Source: Bacteroidota bacterium (GTDB taxonomy: Bacteria; Bacteroidota; Bacteroidia; SXHM01). Taken from it: a stretch of 64,000 nucleotides of DNA. Numbering within the stretch: position 1 is the first letter of the stretch; each line of letters opens with the position of its first letter. Location of the stretch: positions 1-64,000 of the forward strand of contig CANKAM010000014.1 of assembly GCA_947479755.1 (NCBI GenBank), in the 5' to 3' direction. The notes beneath the pieces were generated by a model. That model was not told the DNA's origin. It saw only the letters and a list, made by a program, of their open reading frames with translations, and made no database searches. Positions 28,493 through 54,636 of the stretch are shown here, piece after piece. The translations under genes were made by a program, and so were the position numbers.

Positions 28493-28766
28493 GCATTTTT
28501 CTGCGTTGTCCGCACTATTTTCTGTGTTGTCCGCTCTATTTACTTGGGTGGGAGCAATCACTTCTGTGTTGTCCGCAATTATTTCTGTATTGTCCGCAAA
28601 GATAACGTAGCTGTCCGCAAAAATAATAACTATCATTTTTGCGGACAATCAAGTAATTTTAATGGACAACTAAGTAAATTTTACGGACAACTATATAATT
28701 TTAGCGGACAACTAAGTAATATCTTCGGACAATTGCATTATATTTGCGGACAACCTAAAAATAAAC
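28493..28766. repeat. Symmetric 21-bp-phased array (6+6 inverted units)
   Basis: Twelve 21-bp units in two mirror halves. Left half, plus-strand word TTGTCCGC (or close): 28506, 28527, (degenerate unit ending 28555), 28569, 28590, and CTGTCCGC at 28611. Right half, GCGGACAA or a one- to two-base variant: 28641, 28662, 28683, 28704, 28725 and 28746. Spacing is exactly 21 bp throughout each half, with a 22-bp AT-rich centre (28619-28640) that is itself nearly palindromic. Right units continue as ACTAAGTAATTTTA-like sequence, left units (reverse complement) as ACACAGAAATAATT-like sequence. The array fills the gap between the TPR gene and the 221-residue gene, ending 7 bp before its ATG. Not a CRISPR: no unique spacers and no cas genes. 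I do not recognise it. Confidence 0.93.
28739..28746 (+). promoter_or_regulatory. -7 box inside the last array unit junction
   Basis: TATATTTG matches TAnnTTTG and its last G is the first base of the final GCGGACAA word. It lies 27 bp before the ATG at 28774, so the array would overlap the promoter of the adjacent gene. Confidence 0.45.
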
Positions 28767-28773
28767 CTAAACC

Positions 28774-29439
28774 ATGGCAACAACACAACCAAAAGAACGC
28801 GAACGCGATTTTTCAATGGAAGATACTCTGCTTATTCAAAAAAGCGAAACGCTGCACACGCACTTTTTAAATTACCTTGCCCGGTTCAGCGCCTTTGACC
28901 CCGACCTTAATGCCGCCTATGCCGGCAATTGGCTATCATCTATCAACGAATGTGAAGCCACCGAAACCGATGAAACGGTAATGGATCAACTGCAACACCA
29001 TTCAGAAGAACTTGAGCAAGCGAAAAAAGCAGGATTTACAATAGCCAGCGAATTGGAACATTATGTAAAAAAAGCATTTCCGGCTAAAAAACGAAAAGCC
29101 GAAGAATTTGGATTTACCGAACGCAAAAAAGCACGTGCCACCCAGCTTAACCAATACATGTGGCTACTGGTAATGAAAAAAATTGCTGAAGATTATAGTG
29201 CCGAACTTGCTGCAGTGGGAATGCCCGCCATTTTGCTAACCAACCTGGGCACAAAAACCCAAACCATTCTGGAAAAAGAAACCCAACAGGAGTATTTTAA
29301 ACACCTGCGCATACGCTACTCCAGCCAGCGCGTTGAAAAAATGAACAACCTTTATGAATTTTGCAAAACCGTAAACAGTGCTGCACAATCGGTTTTTTAT
29401 AACGAACCCGAAGAAAAAGGGCTATTTATTATTTACTGA
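28774..29439 (+). CDS. Unrecognised 221-residue protein adjacent to the 21-bp array
   Basis: A full-length ORF with ATG at 28774 and stop at 29437-29439. There is no signal peptide, lipobox or transmembrane segment, so it should be cytoplasmic. It looks mostly helical and highly charged. An acidic first half (NECEATETDETVMDQ) is followed by a basic stretch with KKAFPAKKRKAEEF and ERKKARATQL, then WLLVMKKIAEDYSAELA and a C-terminal region with YFKHLRIRYSSQRVEKMNN. I do not recognise the family. No HUH nuclease, tyrosine transposase, helicase or P-loop motif is visible. The basic segment could bind nucleic acid (inference). The phased array directly upstream suggests a link, either autoregulation or a dedicated DNA or RNA ligand. 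Confidence 0.75.
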   Translation: MATTQPKERERDFSMEDTLLIQKSETLHTHFLNYLARFSAFDPDLNAAYAGNWLSSINECEATETDETVMDQLQHHSEELEQAKKAGFTIASELEHYVKKAFPAKKRKAEEFGFTERKKARATQLNQYMWLLVMKKIAEDYSAELAAVGMPAILLTNLGTKTQTILEKETQQEYFKHLRIRYSSQRVEKMNNLYEFCKTVNSAAQSVFYNEPEEKGLFIIY

Positions 29440-29697: not shown

Positions 29698-32600
29698 ATG
29701 GAAAAAATTATACGCCCTATGAATACTATTTTGAAAAGTGCAGCCCTGGTGCTTGCGGTATTCCTTACCACCTTCTCAAGTAACACAGCACAAGCCCAAT
29801 GTCCGTTGAGCTTTACATCTGTAACAATGACCCCCGTAACCTGCTTTGGCGGGAGTGACGGAAGCATAACCATTGTAGGTAACGGAGGCGTTGCACCTTA
29901 TGACTTTGGCGTGGTGCAGGTACCTTCTATCTTCCTGACATTCACTGACAATATATTAACACACACCTTTACCGGCTTACCGGCAGGTAATTACATTGTG
30001 GTATTTGAATCAGACAATAGTGGTTGCGGAACTACACAAATTTCAACTACCATAACCATAACACAACCAGCAGCAGGCGTAACTACTACAATGTCGTTCA
30101 CACCTGTTTCGTGCAACGGTGGGGCAAACGGAACTGCAACAGCAACACCTTCAGGTGGAACTCCTGGATATACCTACCTCTGGTCACCAAGCAATCAAAC
30201 AACACAAACAGCAACAGGCTTGTCAGCAGGTGTTCACAACGTAGTAGTTACCGATGCACTTGGTTGCACAACCAATGGTACCGTTACAGTTACTCAACCT
30301 GCCGGAATGAGTCAAAGTTCAGTTGTTACCAACGTTTTGTGTTTCGGGCAATTGAACGGAGCCATTGATTTAACAGTAAGTGGAGGAACATCGCCCTACA
30401 CCTATCTTTGGTCAAACGGTGCAACAACACAAGATATAAGCGGACTTGCAGCCGGAAGTTATTCAGTTGTTATTACCGATGCAAACGGTTGCACACTTAG
30501 TCCACCGGCAATCGTGGTTTCGCAACCAACAATTCTTATCAGTTCCGAAACACACGTGAATGTAAACTGTGCCGGCTCAAACACCGGCTCTATTGATATA
30601 ACTGTTTCAGGCGGAACATCGCCCTACACCTACCTTTGGAACACGGCACAAACTACTCAGGATTTATCAGGCTTGGCACCCGGCTTTTATTCAGTAAACA
30701 TTACCGATGCCAACGGTTGTACCTCTACACGAAGCGCAACCATTACACAATTATCGAACCTCAGCGTTTCATCACTTATTACTGATGCAACATGTGGCGC
30801 AAGTGATGGAGCAGTTAATGTAACTGTTTCGGGCGGTTCAGGAAACTACACTTATTTATGGTCTCCGGGCGGAGCAACAACAGAAGACATCAGCGGGTTA
30901 AATGCCGCAGTTTATACCGTTACTGTTACCGATGTAACATTGGGTTGCACGCAAACATTGGCAAATAATGTTCAGAACTCAGGCAATCCTAATATTACAG
31001 GTACAGTAACTAATGCAACAAATTGCAACGCTACTAATGGTGCAATAGATATTACCGTTACAGGCGGTTCAGGCAGTTATTCTTATTTATGGGCACCCAG
31101 CGGACAGATTACACAAGACCGCATCAATCTTGCAGTAGGTAGCTATACCGTTACCGTTACTGATAACACTACAGGATGTATTGCCATTGCAACATTTGCA
31201 GTATCCTATACTAATGCAATGACACTTTCCGGTGCGGTAACCAACTCTAATTGTAGCAGCAACAGCGGTGCAGTTGATTTAACTGTTACGGGTGGAACTG
31301 CTCCTTTAACTTATTTGTGGAGCAACGGAGTAACAACACAAGACATCAGCAGTATTGGTGCCGGAGTATATTCTGTCACCGTAACAGATGCTAATGGTTG
31401 CACAGCTAACAGTGTATTTCCTGTAAGCGGTTCAAACGGCATAACAGTTACCTCGGTTGAAACGGATATAACCTGCGCAGGTGCCGGCAACGGAAGTGTT
31501 AACCTTACCGTTTCAGGCGGTTCAGGCTCATATACCTATTCATGGTCAAACGGAGCAATAACACAGGATATCAGCAGTCTTTCACCCGGAACTTATACCG
31601 TTTCAGTTACAGATGCAGTAAGTCTTTGTTCTTCATTTTTATCATTTACCATTACACAGCCTGCTGGATATAATGGATTTGTAGATATTATTCATGTAAC
31701 CTGCAATGGCGGCAGCAACGGAAGTATAGACCTTACACTTGGTGGGGCAACTCCTCCTTATACCTATTTATGGTCACCCGGTGGACAAACCACACAAGAC
31801 ATCAGCGGACTAGGTGTAGGCACCAACTCGGTAACTATTACAGATGCCAACGGTTGCACAGCAGGTGCCGGATTTACAATTACACAACCAGCTGCAATCG
31901 CTTTAACCGAAACACATGTAAATGTAAGCTGTGCAAGCGGAGCCAATGGTTCTGTTAACCTCAGCGTTTCAGGTGGAACTGCACCTTATACTTATGGTTG
32001 GAGCAACGGTGCAACAACACAAGACATCAGTGGGCTTTCAGCAGGATTTTACAATGTTACCGTTACAGATGCCAACGGTTGCTCATCAAGCCTTAATGTT
32101 AACATCACTGAAGTTTCAAACCTTACCATTAATATAGTAAGTGTTGTAAACTCACAATGTAATGCAAACACGGGATCAATAGATATAACCATTACAGGCG
32201 GTTCAGGAAACTATACTTATTCATGGACTCCGGGCTCATTAACCACTCAGGATTTAACAGGTCTTGCTCCCGGAATTTATACTGTAACCGTTACAGATAT
32301 TACCCTGGGTTGCGTTCAATCAACAGCAATCAATGTATCAGAAACAGGCGCACCAAATGTTTCTGGGGTTGTAACTCCTGCTACTGATTGTGCTGCTACC
32401 AACGGTGCAATTGATGTTACCGTTTCAGGTGGTTCAGGCAACTACTCTTATTTATGGTCGCCAAGCGGGCAAACCACACAAGACCGCACAGCACTTGCTC
32501 CCGGAGCATATACTGTAACTGTAACGGATGTTATAACAGGATGCTCGGGTCTTACAAGCTTCACAGTTACTGCAGGAAGCGGAATTACGCTTACAGCCGG

Positions 32601-35600
32601 CATAACCAATTCAAGTTGCAGCACCAGCACAGGTGCCGTTGATTTAAGTGTAAGCGGTGGAACTGCACCTTATACTTACTTATGGACAAACGGAGCAACA
32701 ACACAAGACATTAGCGGATTACCGGGTGCTATATACGGAGTAACTGTTACCGATGCAAACGGTTGCACAGCTAACTCATTCTTCACAGTAAGCGAAACCT
32801 CAGCATTTACACTTTCAGTTGCAATAACTAATATTAACTGCGCAGGCGGAATTAATGGTGCTATTAACCTCACCGTTTCAGGTGGTTCAGGAAACTATAC
32901 CTATACATGGAGCAACGGAGCAACTACTCAGGATTTATCTGCTATTCCTGCAGGTTCCTATTCAGTAAGTGTTACCGATGTAACAACAGGCTGTACTTCG
33001 TTTGCAATTTATACCGTTACCGAACCAACAACCATTACACTTTCTGCTAACGCAACCAACATTCCTTGTAACGGAAGCGGAACAGGTTCTATTGACCTTA
33101 CTGTAAGCGGTGGAAGTCCAATCTATACCTATTCATGGTCTACCGGAGCAACCACACAGGATATCAGCGGACTTGCATTAGGAACCTATATCCTGACGTT
33201 CTCTGATGCCAATGGTTGCGGTGGCGTTTACTCTTATACCATTGCTCAGCCAACTTCAATTACTATTACCGAAACACATACAAACGTAACCTGTAACGGG
33301 CTTAACAACGGAGCTATTAATATCACTGTTTCAGGTGGAACTGCTCCTTATGCTTATCTATGGGCACCAAGCGGACAAACTACAGAAGACCGCACCGCTC
33401 TTGCACCTAATACCTATACGGTAACAGTTACAGACATCAACGGATGTAATTCAAATTTATCGGTTACTATTACTCAACCCGCTGTACTTTCTGCATCAGA
33501 AACACATACGAATATCAACTGTTTCGGAGCAAACAACGGAGCTATTGATGTAACAGTAAGCGGTGGCACTGGTCCTTTCACCTATTTATGGACACCAAGC
33601 GGACAAACCACACAAGACCGCACAGGTCTTGCTCCGGGTACTTATTCAGTGGCTATTACGGATGCAAACGGTTGTACAACAGCAATCAATAATGTTGTAA
33701 TCACTCAGCCGCTTTCAGCACTTTCAGTAAATATTTCGTCAAGCAGTAACGTAAGTTGTTTCGGATTATGTAATGGTTCAGCAACAGTTAGCGCAAGCGG
33801 TGGAAGCGGTGGCTATACTTACCTATGGACACCGAGTGGACAAACAACACAAACTGCAACAGGTTTGTGTCCTAATATTTACAACGTTGCAGTAACGGAT
33901 GCAAGCGGTTGCACAGCTTCAGCAACGGTAACTATTATTGAACCGGGTGACCTGGTTGCCTCTGCAACAGGAACCGATGCAAGCTGCAATGGCGTTTGTG
34001 ACGGAACGGCAATAGCTACACAAGTAGGTGGAACAAGTCCGTTTACTTATTTCTGGCTGCCTTCAGGACCTGCAACCAACACCGTAAATAATCTTTGTGC
34101 CGGAACTTTCCAAGTTGTGGTAACCGACTTTAACGGTTGTGACGACACAGCTTCGGTTACAATCAACGAGCCTGCTCCTATTACTTATACTTCAAGTGCT
34201 ACTCCTGTTCTTTGTAACGGTCAGTGTAACGGAACTGCAACAGTTACCCCTAGTGGTGGTTTTGTTCCTTACACTTATCTATGGAGTGACGGGCAAACAA
34301 CACAAACTGCTATCAATCTTTGCTTGGGTATTATGACCTGCACTATTACGGATGCAAACGGTTGCGAAACAATTGCAACAGTTGCTGTTCCAAGTAACTC
34401 GGCTATTGTAATCGATGTTACTTCAAGCGAACCAACCTGCAACGGAAGTTGCGATGGTTTCATAAACACAAGCATTTCAGGCGGGTCAGCACCATACACT
34501 TACTTATGGACACCGGGCGGTGAAACCACCAACTCCATCAACAACCTTTGTGCAGATACCTACACCATTACTGTTACCGATGCAAACGGTTGTCAGCAAG
34601 TGGCGGTAGTTATTCTTGGCGAACCTTCACCAATTGTAATTACACCAACTACATCACCTGCAAGTTGCAATGGTGTTTGTGATGCTTCGGCAAGTATTTC
34701 GGTTTCGGGCGGAACTCCTGGTTATACTTACTTATGGTCTCCGGGCGGTGAAACAACAACTTCATTAAGCAATATCTGCGCAGGCTTCTATACAGTTACT
34801 GTTACAGATGGCAATGGTTGTACTCAAACAGCAAACGTTAACGTTTCTGAGCCAACTGCTATTTCACTAACAACCAACGTTACCGATATTTCGTGCAACG
34901 GAAACACAGACGGCTCAGTTGACCTGACTGTTTCAGGCGGGACTCCGGGTTACACTTACCTGTGGGATAACGGGCAAACTACTCAGGATTTGAGCAATCT
35001 TATTCCGGGAACATACTCAGTAACTGTTACCGATGCTAATGGTTGTACAGCTACCACCTCAGTAACTATCGTTGAGCCGGGAATAGTAGATATGACTTAC
35101 ACTTCAACTCCTGCTACTTGCGGACAGTGTGATGGAACAGCTACTTTATCAGTTATCGGTGGAACTGCACCTTACACCTACTTATGGGGAACAGGCGCTA
35201 CTACTGCAACAGCAACTAACCTGTGCGCAGGTGTTTATCCTGTTTTTGTTACGGATGCTAACGGTTGCACAGGAAGCTTTGCAGTTGCTATCAGCAACAC
35301 TGGCGGACCAACTTCAGTTACAGTTACAACAACCGATGCAAGCTGCTTTGGCTCATGTGATGGTTCTGCCACGGTTACAGGCGTAACAGGAGGAATTGCA
35401 CCTTACGATTACCTGTGGGTACCGGGAGGAGCAACTACTACTTCAGTTTCAGGATTATGCGCAGGAACTTATTTTGTGCAGGTTTCCGATACCAACAACT
35501 GTACGCTTACAGAAACAGTTACTATTGCTGAGCCTTTACAAATTCAGGCAAACGAAGTTGTTGTTACTGCTGATTGCGGAGTTTGCAACGGAAGCATAAC

Positions 35601-38600
35601 ACTTGCTCCTTCATCCGGACAAGCACCCTACACCTTCTTGTGGGGTGGTGGCGAAACAACAAATTCAATAACCGGACTTTGTGCTGGAGTTTACACGGTT
35701 GACATTACAGATGCCAACGGTTGCGTTGAATCACTGGCATTCCCTGTAAACAATGTTCCTAATTCAAGCATTTCAGTTTCATCAACACCTGCAACATGCA
35801 GCGGAAGTTGTGATGGTACAGCTACTGTTACTGTAACGCTTGGCACTGCTCCTTTCACTTACTTGTGGAGCGATGGACAAACCACTGATATTGCTACTAA
35901 TCTTTGTGCGGGAGTTTATACCGTTCAGGTTACCGATGCTTCAAGTTGCATTGCAACGGATATAGTGATTGTGAATGAGCCTTCATTGTTAGCGCTTAGC
36001 CTTCCCGTTGTTTCTAACATAACCTGCAACGGAGCATGCGATGGCACAACTACTATCATTCCTTCAGGCGGAGTGTTACCATATTCTTACCTGTGGAACG
36101 ATGGACAAACTACTGCAACTGCAGTAACACTTTGCCCCGGAACGTATAGTGTAGTTGTTACCGATGCTAACGGTTGCACTTCTGCATGGACTGACATTCC
36201 GGTTACAGAACCTACACCTATTGTTTTGTCAACTTCATGGACAGATGCTTTGTGCTTTAGCGTTTGCGATGGAACGGCAACTGTTGCCGCAACAGGCGGC
36301 ACCGGTGCTTACACCTATTTATGGACTCCCGGTAACCAAACCGATGCAACGGCAGACAGTCTTTGCGCTGGAACATACATTGTTCAGGTTACGGATGCCA
36401 ACGGATGCGTTCAGGGAACTTCAGTATTAATTGGTGAGCCTACCGAAATCACACTTACAACAGACATGCTGCCTGCAAGTTGCAACGGTGTTTGCGATGC
36501 ATCTGCTTGGGTAGTTGCTACAGGTGGCACTCCTTCGTTAGTTACAGGATACACCTATTCATGGAATCCAACTTCTCAAATTGGTGATACTGCTACTGCA
36601 TTGTGTGCAGGTATTTATACTGTTACCGTTACCGACTCTCTTGGTTGCGTGCAAACAGCTACAATAAACGTTGCTGAACCTGCACCTGTTACCATGACAT
36701 TTGCGGTGAATAACGTTACCTGCTTTGGTTTCTGCAATGCTGATGTAACTGCAACCCCTGCGGGCGGAACTGCACCTTACACGTATCAGTGGCTGAACAC
36801 TACAGGACTGGAAACAATAGACTTTGTTGATAGCCTTTGTCCGGGCGAATACTACTTGTTAGTAACCGATGCTAATGGTTGCACAGGTCAGGATACAGTA
36901 ATTGTAACAGAACCAACTTTACTTGTATTTGATGCTACAGTAATTAATAATGTAAGCTGCGGTGGACTATGCGATGGTTCTGCTACAGCAACAGCAAGTG
37001 GTGGAACACCGGCATACTCTTACTTGTGGTCTCCATCAGGTCAAACTACCGAAACTGCAATTAATCTGTGTGCAGGAACCTACACGGTAACCGTTACAGA
37101 TGCCAACGGTTGCGACACAACACAAACTATTGTAATCACTGAGCCTCCTATCCTTACACTTTACCCGACTACAACCAATGCAAGTTGCGGTGGTGTGTGT
37201 GACGGAACAGCAACTGCTAACGTTGGTGGTGGAACGCTTCCTTACCAATATGCATGGAGTGACGGACAAACCGACAGCACCGCTGTAGCTCTTTGTGCAG
37301 GAAATTATTCAGTGCTTGTAACCGATGGAAACGGTTGTACCATTTCTGTTAACGTTATCATTCTTGAACCACCAATCCTAACTTCTTCTATAACTGATTT
37401 CAGTGAAATACTTTGCGCTGGAAACTGCGATGCGTATGCAACAGTTAGCGTATTGGGTGGTGTTCCTCCATACTCTTATCTGTGGAATAACGGACAAACG
37501 GATAGCACTGCAATTAATCTTTGTATCGGAACCTATAGTGTTGTTATTACCGATGCAATCGGTTGTAATACTACTTCCACAGTTATCATCAGCGACCAGA
37601 ATGCGTTGGCAACTGCAATTCCGTTGTTCAACAATGTAAGCTGCTTTGGCCAATGCGATGGAACTGCAACTGCAATTGCAACAGGCGGTGTTGAGCCTTA
37701 CAGCTTTGTATGGGATAACGGACAAAGTGCTGCAATGGCAACCAATCTTTGCCCGGGCACTTATACAGTAACTGTAACCGATGCTGCAAACTGCGTTTCA
37801 ATTTCAACAATTACCATTACCGAACCTGAACTGCTTACTGCTTCTGCTACAGGTGTTGATGCAAGCTGCGGAGGTAATTGCGATGGTACAGCTACCGTAA
37901 CACCTGCCGGTGGAACTCAAGCTTACTCTTACCTCTGGGTTCCCGGTGGACAAACAACAGCAACAGCAACCGGACTTTGCGCAGACTCTTACACCGTTAC
38001 CGTAACCGATGCGAATGGTTGTGATACCACAGCAACTGTTACCATCAGCGAGCCTCCGATTATTGTAGTCTCTGCTTCTGTAACTGCACCTACATGCACT
38101 AATACTGACAACGGAGCAATTGACCTTTCTGTATCAGGCGGTGTTCCGGGATATACCTACGATTGGGATAACGGAGCAACTACCGAAGACCTGACCAACC
38201 TGCTTCCCGGAGTTTATACCGTAACAGTAACCGACAACACAGGTTGCTCTAAAACACTCATTGTAACAGTGGTTGAGCAGATAGTAATTGATGCAAATGC
38301 AGGTCCCGATATTACAATTTGTATTGGTGATCAGGTTCAGTTGCAGGCAACAGGCGGAAGCGGTTATCTGTGGACTCCTGCTTCAGGATTAAATTACAAC
38401 AACATCGACAATCCGGTTGCAACCATCACTACTACTACAACCTACATTGTTCAGGTTACCAACTTCAGTTGCGTGGATTATGACACAGTAACTGTTACCG
38501 TTAACCCTCTTCCTGTAATTGATGCGGGTGCTGGTGCTGAAATTCTTTCAGGAACTACCGTTCAGTTAGAAGCTGCCGGTGCAGGTACCAACGGAACGTA

Positions 38601-39012
38601 TTCATGGTCGCCAAGCGATGGGTTGGATAATGCAAACATCTACAACCCGATTGCATCACCAACAATAACAACTATCTACTTTGTAACCGGAACAGATGAA
38701 AACGGATGCTCTGCGGTTGATTCGTTAACCATTGAAGTATCTCCCGGAATTGTTTTCCCTGATGGTATAACACCAAATGATGACGGTATTAATGATACCT
38801 GGATTATTGACTTTATCAATAATTTCCCGGAAGCAGTGGTAATGGTTTACAACCGTTGGGGACAAGAACTCTTCTATTCTAAAGGCTACGGAACAGCTTG
38901 GGATGGAAGATACAAAGGAAAAGACCTTCCTGTGGGAACATACTATTATGTAATAGACCTGCACAATGGAACAACTGAACCTTATACCGGACCTATAACA
39001 ATAGCGAGATAA
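29698..39012 (+). CDS. Giant SprB-repeat surface adhesin with gliding-associated C-terminal domain
   Basis: A 3104-residue secreted protein. The N-terminal signal peptide (LKSAALVLAVFLTTFSS, cleavage near AQAQC) may start at 29698 or at the ATG at 29719. By eye I count 37 SprB-type repeats of about 75 residues, each with C-x-G-x-x-[ND]-G, SGG-TxPYTYLW, a TTQDISGL-like turn and a TVTVTDANGC end. Residues 205-1344 are mostly two-Cys repeats and 1345-2791 mostly four-Cys repeats. Two Ig-like segments and a CHU_C/TIGR04131 type B sorting domain (PNDDGINDTWII, VYNRWGQELFYSKGY, LPVGTYYYVIDL) close it. SprB is the mobile adhesin of gliding in F. johnsoniae; this is a homologue by architecture. The PorP/SprF-family gene after it fits the sprB-sprF pairing. 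Confidence 0.95.
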   Translation: MEKIIRPMNTILKSAALVLAVFLTTFSSNTAQAQCPLSFTSVTMTPVTCFGGSDGSITIVGNGGVAPYDFGVVQVPSIFLTFTDNILTHTFTGLPAGNYIVVFESDNSGCGTTQISTTITITQPAAGVTTTMSFTPVSCNGGANGTATATPSGGTPGYTYLWSPSNQTTQTATGLSAGVHNVVVTDALGCTTNGTVTVTQPAGMSQSSVVTNVLCFGQLNGAIDLTVSGGTSPYTYLWSNGATTQDISGLAAGSYSVVITDANGCTLSPPAIVVSQPTILISSETHVNVNCAGSNTGSIDITVSGGTSPYTYLWNTAQTTQDLSGLAPGFYSVNITDANGCTSTRSATITQLSNLSVSSLITDATCGASDGAVNVTVSGGSGNYTYLWSPGGATTEDISGLNAAVYTVTVTDVTLGCTQTLANNVQNSGNPNITGTVTNATNCNATNGAIDITVTGGSGSYSYLWAPSGQITQDRINLAVGSYTVTVTDNTTGCIAIATFAVSYTNAMTLSGAVTNSNCSSNSGAVDLTVTGGTAPLTYLWSNGVTTQDISSIGAGVYSVTVTDANGCTANSVFPVSGSNGITVTSVETDITCAGAGNGSVNLTVSGGSGSYTYSWSNGAITQDISSLSPGTYTVSVTDAVSLCSSFLSFTITQPAGYNGFVDIIHVTCNGGSNGSIDLTLGGATPPYTYLWSPGGQTTQDISGLGVGTNSVTITDANGCTAGAGFTITQPAAIALTETHVNVSCASGANGSVNLSVSGGTAPYTYGWSNGATTQDISGLSAGFYNVTVTDANGCSSSLNVNITEVSNLTINIVSVVNSQCNANTGSIDITITGGSGNYTYSWTPGSLTTQDLTGLAPGIYTVTVTDITLGCVQSTAINVSETGAPNVSGVVTPATDCAATNGAIDVTVSGGSGNYSYLWSPSGQTTQDRTALAPGAYTVTVTDVITGCSGLTSFTVTAGSGITLTAGITNSSCSTSTGAVDLSVSGGTAPYTYLWTNGATTQDISGLPGAIYGVTVTDANGCTANSFFTVSETSAFTLSVAITNINCAGGINGAINLTVSGGSGNYTYTWSNGATTQDLSAIPAGSYSVSVTDVTTGCTSFAIYTVTEPTTITLSANATNIPCNGSGTGSIDLTVSGGSPIYTYSWSTGATTQDISGLALGTYILTFSDANGCGGVYSYTIAQPTSITITETHTNVTCNGLNNGAINITVSGGTAPYAYLWAPSGQTTEDRTALAPNTYTVTVTDINGCNSNLSVTITQPAVLSASETHTNINCFGANNGAIDVTVSGGTGPFTYLWTPSGQTTQDRTGLAPGTYSVAITDANGCTTAINNVVITQPLSALSVNISSSSNVSCFGLCNGSATVSASGGSGGYTYLWTPSGQTTQTATGLCPNIYNVAVTDASGCTASATVTIIEPGDLVASATGTDASCNGVCDGTAIATQVGGTSPFTYFWLPSGPATNTVNNLCAGTFQVVVTDFNGCDDTASVTINEPAPITYTSSATPVLCNGQCNGTATVTPSGGFVPYTYLWSDGQTTQTAINLCLGIMTCTITDANGCETIATVAVPSNSAIVIDVTSSEPTCNGSCDGFINTSISGGSAPYTYLWTPGGETTNSINNLCADTYTITVTDANGCQQVAVVILGEPSPIVITPTTSPASCNGVCDASASISVSGGTPGYTYLWSPGGETTTSLSNICAGFYTVTVTDGNGCTQTANVNVSEPTAISLTTNVTDISCNGNTDGSVDLTVSGGTPGYTYLWDNGQTTQDLSNLIPGTYSVTVTDANGCTATTSVTIVEPGIVDMTYTSTPATCGQCDGTATLSVIGGTAPYTYLWGTGATTATATNLCAGVYPVFVTDANGCTGSFAVAISNTGGPTSVTVTTTDASCFGSCDGSATVTGVTGGIAPYDYLWVPGGATTTSVSGLCAGTYFVQVSDTNNCTLTETVTIAEPLQIQANEVVVTADCGVCNGSITLAPSSGQAPYTFLWGGGETTNSITGLCAGVYTVDITDANGCVESLAFPVNNVPNSSISVSSTPATCSGSCDGTATVTVTLGTAPFTYLWSDGQTTDIATNLCAGVYTVQVTDASSCIATDIVIVNEPSLLALSLPVVSNITCNGACDGTTTIIPSGGVLPYSYLWNDGQTTATAVTLCPGTYSVVVTDANGCTSAWTDIPVTEPTPIVLSTSWTDALCFSVCDGTATVAATGGTGAYTYLWTPGNQTDATADSLCAGTYIVQVTDANGCVQGTSVLIGEPTEITLTTDMLPASCNGVCDASAWVVATGGTPSLVTGYTYSWNPTSQIGDTATALCAGIYTVTVTDSLGCVQTATINVAEPAPVTMTFAVNNVTCFGFCNADVTATPAGGTAPYTYQWLNTTGLETIDFVDSLCPGEYYLLVTDANGCTGQDTVIVTEPTLLVFDATVINNVSCGGLCDGSATATASGGTPAYSYLWSPSGQTTETAINLCAGTYTVTVTDANGCDTTQTIVITEPPILTLYPTTTNASCGGVCDGTATANVGGGTLPYQYAWSDGQTDSTAVALCAGNYSVLVTDGNGCTISVNVIILEPPILTSSITDFSEILCAGNCDAYATVSVLGGVPPYSYLWNNGQTDSTAINLCIGTYSVVITDAIGCNTTSTVIISDQNALATAIPLFNNVSCFGQCDGTATAIATGGVEPYSFVWDNGQSAAMATNLCPGTYTVTVTDAANCVSISTITITEPELLTASATGVDASCGGNCDGTATVTPAGGTQAYSYLWVPGGQTTATATGLCADSYTVTVTDANGCDTTATVTISEPPIIVVSASVTAPTCTNTDNGAIDLSVSGGVPGYTYDWDNGATTEDLTNLLPGVYTVTVTDNTGCSKTLIVTVVEQIVIDANAGPDITICIGDQVQLQATGGSGYLWTPASGLNYNNIDNPVATITTTTTYIVQVTNFSCVDYDTVTVTVNPLPVIDAGAGAEILSGTTVQLEAAGAGTNGTYSWSPSDGLDNANIYNPIASPTITTIYFVTGTDENGCSAVDSLTIEVSPGIVFPDGITPNDDGINDTWIIDFINNFPEAVVMVYNRWGQELFYSKGYGTAWDGRYKGKDLPVGTYYYVIDLHNGTTEPYTGPITIAR

Positions 39013-50901: not shown

Positions 50902-52167
50902 ATGAGAAAACAAACCTCCATATTCGATAACATAGACTGGGTGATGGTTTCCATCTTTCTGGTAATGATTTTTCTGGGCTGGATAAGTATTTATGCTGCC
51001 GTGTATAACGAGGAGCACAAAAGCATTCTCGACACTTCGGAAAACTATGGCAAGCAGTTAATCTGGATAGCAAGTTCCATTTTTATTGCTGCGGTTATTC
51101 TGCTGATTGACGGAAAGTTTTATACCATTTCGGCCTACCCTGTTTACGGGTTGGTGATGCTGCTGCTTATTCTGGTGTTGGTTTTCGGGCGCGAGGTTTC
51201 GGGAAGCAAATCGTGGTTTGAGATAGGCAGCAACTTCAGGATACAGCCGGCTGAGTTCGGGAAATTTGCCACCGCGCTGGTGGTTGCCAAATATCTGAGC
51301 ACCATGAACATTAAGTTTGAGGACAATAAAACCAAACTGATTACGGCTGCTTTTATTGCCACTCCTGCCCTGCTTATTCTGTTGCAGAACGATACGGGTT
51401 CGGCATTGGTTTACGGGGCTTTTTTGTTTGTGCTGTATCGCGAAGGCTTATCGGGAAACTTTTTGATGGCGGGTGTGGCTGTGGTTTTGGTGTTTATTGT
51501 TACGCTGCTGTTTGACCCCAAGACGATGATGTGGATTGTGGGCGTAATTGCCTTCCTGATTTTTATTGCGGGCAAACGCAACTGGAAAAATGCGCTGCTT
51601 ATTGGCGGCACTGCGGTGGTGTTTTCGGGCATGTCATATAGTGTGGGGTATGTGGTTGACAATGTGCTGGAGATACATCAGAAAACGCGTATCAATGTTA
51701 TGCTGGGCAAGGAAGACGACCCGAAGGGCGTGGGCTACAACGTGAACCAGAGTAAAATTGCCATTGGCTCGGGCGGGTTTACGGGTAAAGGTTTTTTAAA
51801 TGGCACGCAAACCAAATACAAGTTTGTGCCTGAGCAAAGCACCGACTTTATTTTTTGCACCGTGGGCGAAGAGTGGGGTTTTATGGGCGCCTTTGTGGTG
51901 ATTGTATTGTTCCTGTTTTTATTAGTGCGCATCATCTATGTAGCCGAGCGACAGAAATCAACCTTTACGCGCATCTATGGCTACGGGGTGGCTTCTATTC
52001 TGTTCTTTCACTTTGCGGTAAACATTGCCATGACTATAGGACTTGCTCCCGTTATCGGTATTCCCCTGCCCTTTTTCAGCTACGGGGGTTCATCGCTGTG
52101 GGCCTTTACTATTCTGCTGTTTGTGTTTATTAAACTGGATGCGTACAGGATGCAGTTGTTGAGGTGA
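50902..52167 (+). CDS. rodA: Peptidoglycan glycosyltransferase RodA (SEDS family)
   Basis: A 421-residue SEDS glycosyltransferase that polymerises lipid II with PBP2. About ten TM helices are visible. Family segments include GSKSWFEIGSNFRIQPAEFG, LLQNDTGSALVYGAF (the conserved Asp-Thr-Gly-Ser-Ala), GGFTGKGFLNGTQTKYKFVP, QSTDFIFCTVGEEWGFMGA and the C-terminal GIPLPFFSYGGSS. It ends the shape cluster. No terminator follows directly; a phased palindrome array lies between it and the bidirectional terminator at 52493. Confidence 0.97.
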   Translation: MRKQTSIFDNIDWVMVSIFLVMIFLGWISIYAAVYNEEHKSILDTSENYGKQLIWIASSIFIAAVILLIDGKFYTISAYPVYGLVMLLLILVLVFGREVSGSKSWFEIGSNFRIQPAEFGKFATALVVAKYLSTMNIKFEDNKTKLITAAFIATPALLILLQNDTGSALVYGAFLFVLYREGLSGNFLMAGVAVVLVFIVTLLFDPKTMMWIVGVIAFLIFIAGKRNWKNALLIGGTAVVFSGMSYSVGYVVDNVLEIHQKTRINVMLGKEDDPKGVGYNVNQSKIAIGSGGFTGKGFLNGTQTKYKFVPEQSTDFIFCTVGEEWGFMGAFVVIVLFLFLLVRIIYVAERQKSTFTRIYGYGVASILFFHFAVNIAMTIGLAPVIGIPLPFFSYGGSSLWAFTILLFVFIKLDAYRMQLLR

Positions 52168-52217: not shown

Positions 52218-52463
52218 ATTGGATGTAACACAGGCATCTGTGTTACTATCAAGAAGCCTCTTTAGTATCACACAGGCACGTGTGTTATATTAAATACTGC
52301 TATTCTGTCAAACACAGGTTTCTGTGTTATATACAAACATGCTATTTTGTCCGACACACGAGCCTGTGTTGCATTCAATAAGACTATTTAAGGCAACACA
52401 CGTGCCTGTGTGATACTAAATAATGTTTTTTGACCCAACACACGCGTCTGTGTGACACCCAAC
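52218..52463. repeat. Symmetric array of six 42-bp-phased palindromes (3+3)
   Basis: Six copies of ACACA-N6-TGTGT start at 52228, 52270, 52312, 52354, 52396 and 52438, exactly 42 bp apart. The first three begin ACACAGG, the last three ACACACG, so the second half is the inverse of the first about 52340.5. Unit 5 is the inverted copy of unit 2: 26 nt at 52261-52286 are the perfect reverse complement of 52395-52420. Unit 1 has a perfect 9-bp stem (GTAACACAG/CTGTGTTAC). Spacers share a loose CTATTTTGTC-like word before each unit. The array lies between the convergent rodA and PpiD-like genes; no ORF is present. I do not recognise it. Confidence 0.93.
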
Positions 52464-52492
52464 CAACATTTTGTATTGAAAAGGCACAAAAA

Positions 52493-52516
52493 AACCCGCA
52501 TAAAGCGGGTTTTTTT
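52493..52516. terminator. Bidirectional rho-independent terminator
   Basis: AACCCGC (52493-52499), loop ATAAA, GCGGGTT (52505-52511) with T residues to 52516 and seven A residues before it. It serves the rod-shape operon and the palindrome array from the left and the PpiD-like gene from the right. Confidence 0.92.
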
Positions 52517-52536: not shown

Positions 52537-54636
52537 TTAGTAAAACTTAACCCGGTTATCTTTAACCTCCGCTTTGTCTTTCAATGCTTCGTACACTTCG
52601 TAATCGGCACGTGAAGCAAGGGTTTGGGCTAATTGTTTTTTAGCGGGAGCAAAATCGGTTACTTCGGGTGCTTCCACTACATTGTCAACATACACTACAT
52701 ACACCCCTGATAAACCTTTTACCGGTTTAGAAACTGTGGCAACTTTCAATGCAGCAATAGTACCCAATACTTCAGGCTCTTTACCCATTCCCGGTATTGA
52801 ACCTGCGCTGAATACTACGTTTTGTGCCGTTTCAACCGGTGCATTCATTTTACCGGCAAGAGCATCAATAGCAGGGTTTCCTGCAAGCGCGGCTTCAAAT
52901 TCTTTGATAAACTGTTCTGCTTTCTTTTCTTTACGCACTTCGGCTTCCAGCTCTTCTTTAATGGTTTCAAGTGGTTTAACACCTTTCTCGTATTTCTCTG
53001 CCAATACCACTACCACATATTTGTTGCCTACTTCATACACCTCCGATACATCACCTTTTTTAGCTGTGTTATATGCCCACTGGATAATAGGGCGGGGATT
53101 ATCAAGTCCTGCAACTTTGCCTTCCATTGGTTTAATGTTTGGGGCAATGCGCACATTGTAACCGCCTTCGGTAGCGGCAGCTTCAAATGCTTCGAGCGTG
53201 CGGTTTTTAGTAGAAAAATCGCTTGCTTTAGAATAAATGTTCTGGAAGGTTTTGTCGCTTGGCTCGGTCAGGCGCTCCACTGTTGCGATGTTAAGTCTGC
53301 GTGTTTCTTTGCTTCTGTCAAGTATCTCAATCAGGTGAATACCAAATTGTGATTCAACAACCGTCATATCCCCTTTTTTACCATTGAAGCAGGCATTGTT
53401 AAATTCAGGAACCATAACACCTTCTTTGAACCAGCCAAGGTCGCCACCCTGCGCACCTGAACCGGCATCGGTTGAAAGAACTTTAGCCAGGTCGGCAAAA
53501 TTGTTTTTTGCTTTTATTACTTTTTTCAGGCTGTCGGCTTTAGCTTTTACAAGCTCCGCATTTCCACCTTCCACTTTCAAAAGAATGTGGCGGGCTTTAA
53601 CTGAGTCAACAGCCATTTTAGTTCCAAGAAGCTTAGATACTTTCCAGCTTTCTGCTTCCAGATAAGGACCTGCAATGGTTCCAACCGCAGCTTTTTTCAG
53701 GGTATCAACAGCAGCAGGAAGTGCTGATTCGGCATACCACATTGCTGCATAAGGCTTATCTGAATTGATGTTTATAAACAAGGTATCGTTATCGGTCAGT
53801 TTAAATTCTTCCGTGGTTTTGTCTATCCATTTTTTTGCAGCCTGATTATCGTCATCAGAAGGTTTGATGTCAAAAGCTACATATTTAAGGTCAACGGCTT
53901 CGTCCTGTTTGTACTGCTCTTTGTAGTTGTTGGCAGCATAATATGATTTTATCTCTGCATCGGTAACTTTAACACTGGTGTCGGTTGAAGCAGCATAACG
54001 CTTAGCCACAAAACGAACGTTTGCCATTTTGTTTTTAGCTGCGTTATCGGCTTTAGCCTCGGCAGTAGTAATATAAAGACCTTTTTTTACAAGCGTGTTG
54101 TATTTGGTATAAACCTGTTGTTTTTTAAGGTCGCGTTCAAAAGTTGCCCACTTTTTTTTGTCCTCATCAGGGCTTTCATCACTATTCATTCGCTGAGCTG
54201 TGGCAATAACATTAGCAGGATTAAATTCACCTCCTTGGCCGCTGAATGCCTGGCGCACCATCGGTGAGGGATTGGGTCCGAAAAACATATCCGACAATTC
54301 CTCATTGCTGACAGTTACTCCAAGTTCTTCGTGCTGGCTTCCCATTACAATTTCCTGAATCTGCTGGTCCCAGGTCTGGTTGCGGATAGCTTCTTTAGTA
54401 GCCTCGTCAATATTAGCCTGCTGGTAGCTGGCTTTGTAGTTTTCAATAGCTTCCTGAACTTTCAGTTCAAAATCCTGTCCTTCAATTTTTTCACCGGCAA
54501 TAATACCAACGTGGGTTTCGCCACGCTGCGAGCTACTGAAAATGGAGCTGGGATCAATAACAAACAGGGCAATACCAAGCCCAACGAATATAAGTGCTAA
54601 ATAAGTTTTTTCTCTGATTTTTTGTAGAATGGACAT
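52537..54636 (-). CDS. PpiD/SurA-like peptidyl-prolyl isomerase, membrane-anchored foldase
   Basis: A 699-residue protein. One N-terminal TM anchor (TYLALIFVGLGIALFVIDPS) is followed by a SurA_N-like helical region (GEKIEGQDFELKV, VSNEELSDMFFG). A parvulin (rotamase) domain has VKARHILLKVEG, ADLAKVLSTDAGSGAQGGDL, GWFKEGVMVPEFNNAC and SQFGIHLIEILDR. A second, degenerate region of about 250 residues follows. It should help fold outer-membrane and secreted proteins at the periplasmic face. It is the last gene before the bidirectional terminator and lies 61 bp downstream of the YebC-family gene. Confidence 0.93.
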   Translation of the reverse strand: MSILQKIREKTYLALIFVGLGIALFVIDPSSIFSSSQRGETHVGIIAGEKIEGQDFELKVQEAIENYKASYQQANIDEATKEAIRNQTWDQQIQEIVMGSQHEELGVTVSNEELSDMFFGPNPSPMVRQAFSGQGGEFNPANVIATAQRMNSDESPDEDKKKWATFERDLKKQQVYTKYNTLVKKGLYITTAEAKADNAAKNKMANVRFVAKRYAASTDTSVKVTDAEIKSYYAANNYKEQYKQDEAVDLKYVAFDIKPSDDDNQAAKKWIDKTTEEFKLTDNDTLFININSDKPYAAMWYAESALPAAVDTLKKAAVGTIAGPYLEAESWKVSKLLGTKMAVDSVKARHILLKVEGGNAELVKAKADSLKKVIKAKNNFADLAKVLSTDAGSGAQGGDLGWFKEGVMVPEFNNACFNGKKGDMTVVESQFGIHLIEILDRSKETRRLNIATVERLTEPSDKTFQNIYSKASDFSTKNRTLEAFEAAATEGGYNVRIAPNIKPMEGKVAGLDNPRPIIQWAYNTAKKGDVSEVYEVGNKYVVVVLAEKYEKGVKPLETIKEELEAEVRKEKKAEQFIKEFEAALAGNPAIDALAGKMNAPVETAQNVVFSAGSIPGMGKEPEVLGTIAALKVATVSKPVKGLSGVYVVYVDNVVEAPEVTDFAPAKKQLAQTLASRADYEVYEALKDKAEVKDNRVKFY

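Follow-up and report, generated by a model that had tools for sequence, protein, structure and literature searches.

A six-palindrome array downstream of rodA and an apparently widespread class of 21-bp-phased intergenic repeats in Bacteroidota

The rodA/ppiD-like locus

The window, by which is meant the whole 64,000-nucleotide stretch of Bacteroidota DNA that was analysed, contains a convergent gap between rodA and a gene for a PpiD/SurA-like peptidyl-prolyl isomerase, and this gap holds an array of six palindromes and a bidirectional intrinsic terminator (Table 1). The initial annotation had described six copies of ACACA-N6-TGTGT at exactly 42 bp, situated between these two genes, before a terminator and without an open reading frame, and each of these points was recovered: a motif search returned six exact matches and none extra, spanning 52228-52453 in a strict 42-bp step, Pfam identified both neighbours, and the longest open stretch in the array is 51 aa. 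No further copy was found in the window at up to one mismatch, where 2.8 would be expected by chance at one mismatch, and five lone matches occur elsewhere, clustering being confined to this locus. Self-identity within 52218-52463 is 0.66, 0.64 and 0.64 at lags of 42, 84 and 126 bp respectively, and does not exceed 0.47 at any other lag. Compared with a CRISPR array, the palindromes are conserved, yet the linkers between them are also related from unit to unit. Rfam gave no match in the window at gathering thresholds, and phage records gave none.

Table 1. Features of the window that are discussed in the text
Feature	Position	Strand	Description
rodA/ppiD-like array	52218..52463		six 42-bp units; 16-bp palindrome ACACA-N6-TGTGT plus AT-rich linker, CTATTTTGTCC / CCTCTTTA type
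Palindrome 1, ACACAGGCATCTGTGT	52228..52243		exact motif match
Palindrome 2, ACACAGGCACGTGTGT	52270..52285		exact motif match
Palindrome 3, ACACAGGTTTCTGTGT	52312..52327		exact motif match
Palindrome 4, ACACACGAGCCTGTGT	52354..52369		exact motif match
Palindrome 5, ACACACGTGCCTGTGT	52396..52411		exact motif match
Palindrome 6, ACACACGCGTCTGTGT	52438..52453		exact motif match
Bidirectional intrinsic terminator between convergent genes	52488..52516		12-bp perfect stem, A7 / T7 flanks
rodA (PF01098), convergent left neighbour	50902..52167	+	Pfam
PpiD/SurA-like peptidyl-prolyl isomerase, convergent right neighbour	52537..54636	-	Pfam
Array 1, same class	28506..28753		TTGTCCG x5 in 21-bp register (one unit missing); inverted CGGACAA x6 at 21 bp
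Family-A array-associated gene	28774..29439	+	221 aa, all-helical, no Pfam match above threshold; starts 20 bp after array 1

The array had also been read as a 3+3 mirror about 52340.5, and this reading held in part. The 26-nt inverted match between 52261-52286 and 52395-52420 is exact, and units 2 and 5 agree at 35/42 positions when inverted versus 28/42 when direct, but pairs 1/6 (25 inverted, 26 direct) and 3/4 (23 inverted, 29 direct) are no better inverted than direct. The best dyads, at 52277.5, 52340.5, 52382.5 and 52403.5, fall on a 21-bp grid, so that 52340.5 is one dyad among several, and self-mirroring is trivial for any tandem array of palindromes. The array has a 42-bp period and dyads, with no 21-bp sub-period; since dyads recur every 21 bp in 42-bp arrays, 21- and 42-bp arrays can be viewed in common as 21-bp monomers in the same or in alternating orientation.

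A second array in the window, array 1, belongs to the same class and lies directly upstream of a family-A gene (Table 1). Elsewhere in the window, positions 29698-39012 encode a 3104-aa protein with tandem adhesin-like repeats and a C-terminus that resembles, by eye, gliding-motility/T9SS sorting domains.

A 21-bp comb in intergenic DNA

The genome stretches read amount to 1.23 Mb of 3.9 Mb (31%) and were scanned for tandem self-similarity at lags of 12-105; genes were called with a simple in-house caller, the array-detection thresholds were our own, and the genomes are mostly metagenome assemblies. When autocorrelation was summed over 247 intergenic segments of at least 100 bp, the top lags between 12 and 150 were 42, 84, 126, 21, 63, 105 and 147. 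Both lags at which the initial annotation had proposed a scan, 21 and 42 bp, are therefore among the seven strongest in the intergenic DNA of the 1.23 Mb, and its remarks that the period is twice 21 and that the palindromes are too regular for ordinary dispersed hairpins agree with a 21-bp comb that runs through the intergenic DNA of the genus.

Lags of 21, 42, 63, 84 or 105 bp were found in 27 of the 37 arrays lacking a frame open for at least 180 aa, and three additional arrays have a period of 41 bp. In the 1.23 Mb, 32 intergenic gaps are filled by arrays whose spacing is a multiple of 21 bp or, in a few cases, 41 bp, which extrapolates to roughly 100 arrays per genome. These gaps are co-directional, divergent and convergent in the usual proportions (16/10/6, compared with 60/42/19 for all gaps), and the unit sequences are mostly unlike between arrays, each being nearly confined to one or two loci. 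The rodA/ppiD-like array shares the features of this class, namely a period of 21n or 41/42 bp and a non-coding, intergenic position, and belongs to a large group of Bacteroidota repeat arrays that seems not to have been described until now. Some arrays abut the starts of housekeeping genes (gyrB-like, ParA-like, surE and ispF, partly judged by eye), as at G000:C6:100884-101461 and C6:71183-71941, and partner genes for these arrays were not found.

Three protein families with upstream arrays

Relatives of the family-A gene beside array 1 occur within the genus as well as in further families of the class, and those in the genus nearly all have an array directly upstream. Families B and C were recognised from other genes that start beside arrays, and all three families recur across the class. 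About half of the arrays adjoin the start of a gene that belongs to family A, B or C, none of which has been characterised; for a good part of the arrays, no family gene or partner was found in the 31% of the genome read. At L262 (G003:C3), family-A genes occur in tandem (248-1129 and 1498-2136), the second directly preceded by a strong 21-bp array.

The association was measured by applying the same test to the 480 bp upstream of every gene compared, in which periods of 20-22, 41-44, 63, 82-84 or 105 bp were counted. Outside the genus, an array was present upstream of 44 of 59 family genes (15 had none) and of 1 of 514 other genes (Fisher p ~1e-51, a value that overstates independence because the counts include related loci), and the matches are spread over families f8, f9, f15, f20, f49 and f58 among others. 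Inside the genus, the corresponding figures are 11/12 for family A, 22/26 for family B and 6/6 for family C, versus 15/297 for random genes of the window's own genome. The arrays comprise about 5-20 units and occupy the region from about 340 to 85 bp before the start codon. In the interval that separates the two, a promoter-like motif is overrepresented (6 versus 1.2 expected), which places the array probably upstream of the promoter, and a possible terminator between array and gene was seen in 4 of 62 loci.

Proteins of all three families have a helical N-terminus, followed in most by a β-sandwich C-terminus. Family A is predicted to form an all-helical hairpin (mean pLDDT 95) and family B the same kind of hairpin followed by a β-sandwich (mean pLDDT 88); the two are remote homologs (hhalign probability 88.5%, E 2.7e-6), and a profile link of family C to either was not obtained. 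The libraries gave no function name for any of the three: the matches are confined to a carboxypeptidase-regulatory-like domain (CarboxypepD_reg) in some members of family A and an fn3 domain in some members of family C, and family B has no Pfam or NCBIfam match. A fold search of the PDB with families A and B returned no convincing match and no resemblance to a known DNA-binding protein, and their N-terminal domains lack a basic character (net charge mostly −12 to +9), which is a reason not to assume that they bind DNA. At L324 (G211:C45), a 42-bp array is open in the frame of the gene, and the resulting ORF is a 14-residue repeat (HQSRLLDRGRSYNR) fused before a family-B protein; this is either a real fusion or an accident of frame.

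Period follows the protein family while sequence drifts

The length of the repeat unit corresponds to the protein. Arrays of families A and C have a period of 21 bp, and those of family B are palindromic with a period of 42 or 41 bp; the 21-bp sub-period is present in nearly all A and C arrays and absent from family-B arrays. Within family B, the 41- and 42-bp labels change nine times on the protein tree, versus 17.1 times when shuffled (0/200 shuffles were as low), and one clade of 27 proteins over five bacterial families has 24 arrays of 42 bp and none of 41. That array spacing (21, 41 or 42 bp) tracks the protein family points to dedicated DNA-binding arrays of a new kind.

The sequence of the unit behaves differently. 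L367 and L376 encode proteins that are 97% identical, and their array cores are CCGTAACGGTTACGG and CCGTGGCGGCCACGG, so array sequence can change faster than the protein, and a rule of one protein to one motif is unsupported. Among the orthologs of the family-B gene C2:64601 (L304, L305 and L306), the palindrome core switches from ACACACGTCTGTA to GTAACGCTCGTTAC while the linkers stay similar, and the proteins differ mostly within residues 1-70, a pattern that reflects either co-variation or a single recombination across the array and the 5′ end of the gene. A general rule derived from this trio, that the N-terminus reads the core, fails on L367 and L376.

Detached arrays and their turnover

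The rodA/ppiD-like array is detached, lying in a convergent gap between two housekeeping genes with no family A, B or C gene beside it. It aligns with the array before the family-B gene G000:C2:64601 (Smith-Waterman score 112, against maxima of 28 and 41 for shuffled sequence in two tests) and with the array before a family-B gene of genome G002 (G002:C98; score 98), sharing with them linkers (TTTTGTC, CTCTTTA) as well as cores. Its 42-bp period, its dyads and the lack of a 21-bp sub-period make it an array of the family-B type, and the alignments make it homologous to the gene-linked C2:64601 array. Matches to gene-linked arrays were also found for three other detached arrays: C1:122906 with C1:155005 (score 224, a pair that persists in G001), C8:22295 with C6:20309 (136) and C7:88183 with C4:23418 (140), against shuffled maxima of 36-41 in local alignment. 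Three of the four detached arrays, including that at rodA, are in convergent gaps.

The rodA array is also present, at 98% identity, in the independently assembled genome of a close relative (L012/G006). There it keeps its ACACA cores, whereas the array of the C2:64601 ortholog has GTAACG cores, so either a different protein is the partner in that genome or the pairing has drifted. The initial annotation had allowed for a local amplification, to be recognised by one or two unphased copies in relatives; instead, the rodA sites of L013 (G001) and L014 (G004) have phased 42-bp arrays, which differ in sequence from that of the window and differ from each other in length by exactly one 42-bp unit, and the more distant relative L015 has no array at this site. 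The RodA proteins of the L012, L013 and L015 assemblies differ by up to 11%. A clear partner for the L013 and L014 arrays was not found, the best scores being 76 (a G003 array without an adjoining family gene) and 46 (L320), with shuffled maxima of 31 and 28.

Between the window's own genome and G006, array 1 differs by one 21-bp unit and four substitutions. Arrays that align without other indels are 97-99% identical, with flanking genes at 96%; a weak AT-rich array, at 77%, has diverged further. In 29 non-array gaps, 55 indels were counted, none of which is a multiple of 21. Whole arrays also come and go: C2:114986 is present in the own genome and absent from G006, and C3:12395 is present in G006 and absent from the own genome.

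A proposed mechanism and its rivals

The six palindromes are probably a detached array of a Bacteroidota protein-plus-array system, in which proteins of families A, B and C are proposed to bind in a cooperative and phased manner. The family fixes the unit length, at 21 bp for A and C (in the same orientation, or alternating to give 42 bp), 42 bp and palindromic for B and 41 bp for B subfamilies, and the unit sequence is otherwise free and differs between paralogs. Each protein would bind its own array cooperatively, either as subunits spaced every 21 bp or as dimers that each occupy one palindrome; as 21 bp corresponds to two helical turns and 41-42 bp to four, successive subunits would be brought onto a single face of the DNA. 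The bound array would regulate its own gene and build a nucleoprotein filament, and matching arrays elsewhere, such as that at rodA, would serve the protein as sites in trans. For the array at rodA, the likeliest such protein is that of the family-B gene G000:C2:64601, and the array has a putative role in architecture or in insulation between convergent operons. A more ambitious version is tentative, though quite conceivable: in a chromosomal system not described before, numerous paralogs with a new fold may each assemble on a helically phased array of their own in front of their gene, as well as on detached arrays that match it, such as that at rodA, and so provide each genome with many mutually orthogonal nucleoprotein addresses, for example in tethering or looping loci or in setting expression states.

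The main rival is a duplication ruler that does not read sequence, in which the protein or a linked process duplicates DNA in 21- or 42-bp steps and the arrays are by-products or selfish. Such a satellite would account for a protein that fixes the period while the sequence is free, for cores that outpace their protein, for the gain and loss of arrays between close genomes and for lengths that change by whole units. It nevertheless appears unlikely, as persisting arrays are conserved as much as their flanking genes or more, dyads are preserved by symmetric double changes, diverged arrays keep exact register, and the matching detached arrays imply that sequence matters. An action as RNA, through transcribed hairpin arrays that serve as 3′ UTR structure or as repeat RNA of the type III toxin-antitoxin kind, is improbable. 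The rodA/ppiD-like array does fold strongly as RNA (−124 kcal/mol, z −12.9), and type III systems (ToxIN, CptIN and TenpIN) likewise have a repeat array directly upstream of the gene, with a unit tied to the family of the toxin protein. The antitoxin of those systems consists of multiple RNA repeats (PMC8860590). Against an RNA role, the 21-bp direct arrays here are mostly without dyads or stem-loops, the orientation of array gaps is random, the promoter-like motif lies on the gene side of the array, 58 of 62 loci have no terminator between array and gene, and some arrays are detached. The helical folds are also unlike those of known type III toxins: families A and B are predicted as helical hairpins, with no ToxN/MazF-like β-barrel, and ToxN does not occur among the listed PDB matches.

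A further explanation invokes the intrinsic shape of the DNA, with phased bending or wrapping sites for a general nucleoid protein or gyrase and 21 as the smallest whole multiple of 10.5. It would suit periods of 21, 41 and 42 bp, which are two or four helical turns, and arrays in gaps of every orientation, but a general factor does not explain a period that follows specific protein families, and the 10.5-bp harmonic of WW and SS shows no enrichment relative to column-permuted arrays (z −1.3 and −0.4), so this explanation is very improbable. Sequence-encoded 10.5-bp bending was rejected on the latter ground, and a 7-bp harmonic was contributed by just a few arrays. Coding heptad repeats in unannotated small proteins (21 nt being seven codons) are hardly credible. 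Both 21 and 42 are divisible by three and many arrays have one long open frame; on the other side, hexamer coding scores are near zero or negative for most arrays, mismatches lack a codon phase in all but one non-coding array, the longest open frames in three strong arrays are 21, 51 and 77 aa, and arrays of 41, 43 and 44 bp exist. The hexamer scores, mismatch phase and 41-bp arrays contradict coding for most arrays, that at rodA included, and in-frame stops precede family-A starts.

Relation to known systems

We know of no precedent for arrays whose geometry follows a protein family from one bacterial family to another while their sequence is free to drift, and literature searches found no published description of the pairing of A, B and C genes with arrays. 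The observations turn a single-locus curiosity into a widely distributed, testable system. If the proteins bind the arrays, a single genome would contain a large set of mutually orthogonal pairs of protein and DNA address that evolved naturally, with an uncharacterised fold and function; the arrays would form a new class of element that organises the chromosome or regulates genes, and would allow the divergence of binding specificity among paralogs to be followed in a natural experiment.

The sopC centromere of the F plasmid (ParB/SopB) comes close in geometry, with twelve tandem 43-bp repeats that each contain a 16-bp inverted repeat to which a dimer binds (PMC9178275). This is nearly identical to six 42-bp units with 16-bp palindromes, both being spaced at about four helical turns, but sopC lies on a plasmid, downstream of sopAB, whereas many chromosomal arrays, mostly of differing sequence, are found here. 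No ParB domain occurs in families A-C, and no NTPase partner was recognised among the array neighbours scanned. The parC site of the plasmid parMRC system is similar in that the array belongs to a partner protein and specificity differs between families, ParR binding parC of its own family and not of others (PMC9426499). The differences are that the proteins described here are helical, mostly with a β-sandwich tail and with no Pfam DNA-binding domain, and that the period is tied to the protein family over many bacterial families. No ParM-like NTPase gene was recognised among the selected neighbours scanned with Pfam; one array abuts a ParA-like gene, C6:70361, as judged by eye. The best fit for the rodA/ppiD-like array, by analogy, would be a cooperative array resembling sopC in layout and ParR/parC in family-specific recognition, a reading favoured by constant geometry combined with free sequence, by a period specific to each family, by the matched detached arrays and by the position of the promoter-like motif.

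REP and BIME elements are likewise intergenic palindromes and include convergent gaps, but REPs are one family dispersed through a genome, whereas the units here are near-unique and strictly spaced, with ACACA-N6-TGTGT showing no such dispersal. Short direct repeats of the heptamer TAACTGA precede genes in intergenic DNA of Beggiatoaceae, cyanobacteria and some Bacteroidetes (PMC4679880); these are a single shared heptamer arranged back to back, and neither a 21/42-bp comb nor a family-specific period is described for them. Arrays off the 21-bp comb were also seen in the present material. A 47-bp array of near-identical copies (0.99) lies at G000:C6:13918-14202, and a 14-bp (heptamer) array stands just past the 21-bp array of a family-A gene at L273:2444-2655 (G000:C34), heptamer arrays being present in other Bacteroidota stretches too.
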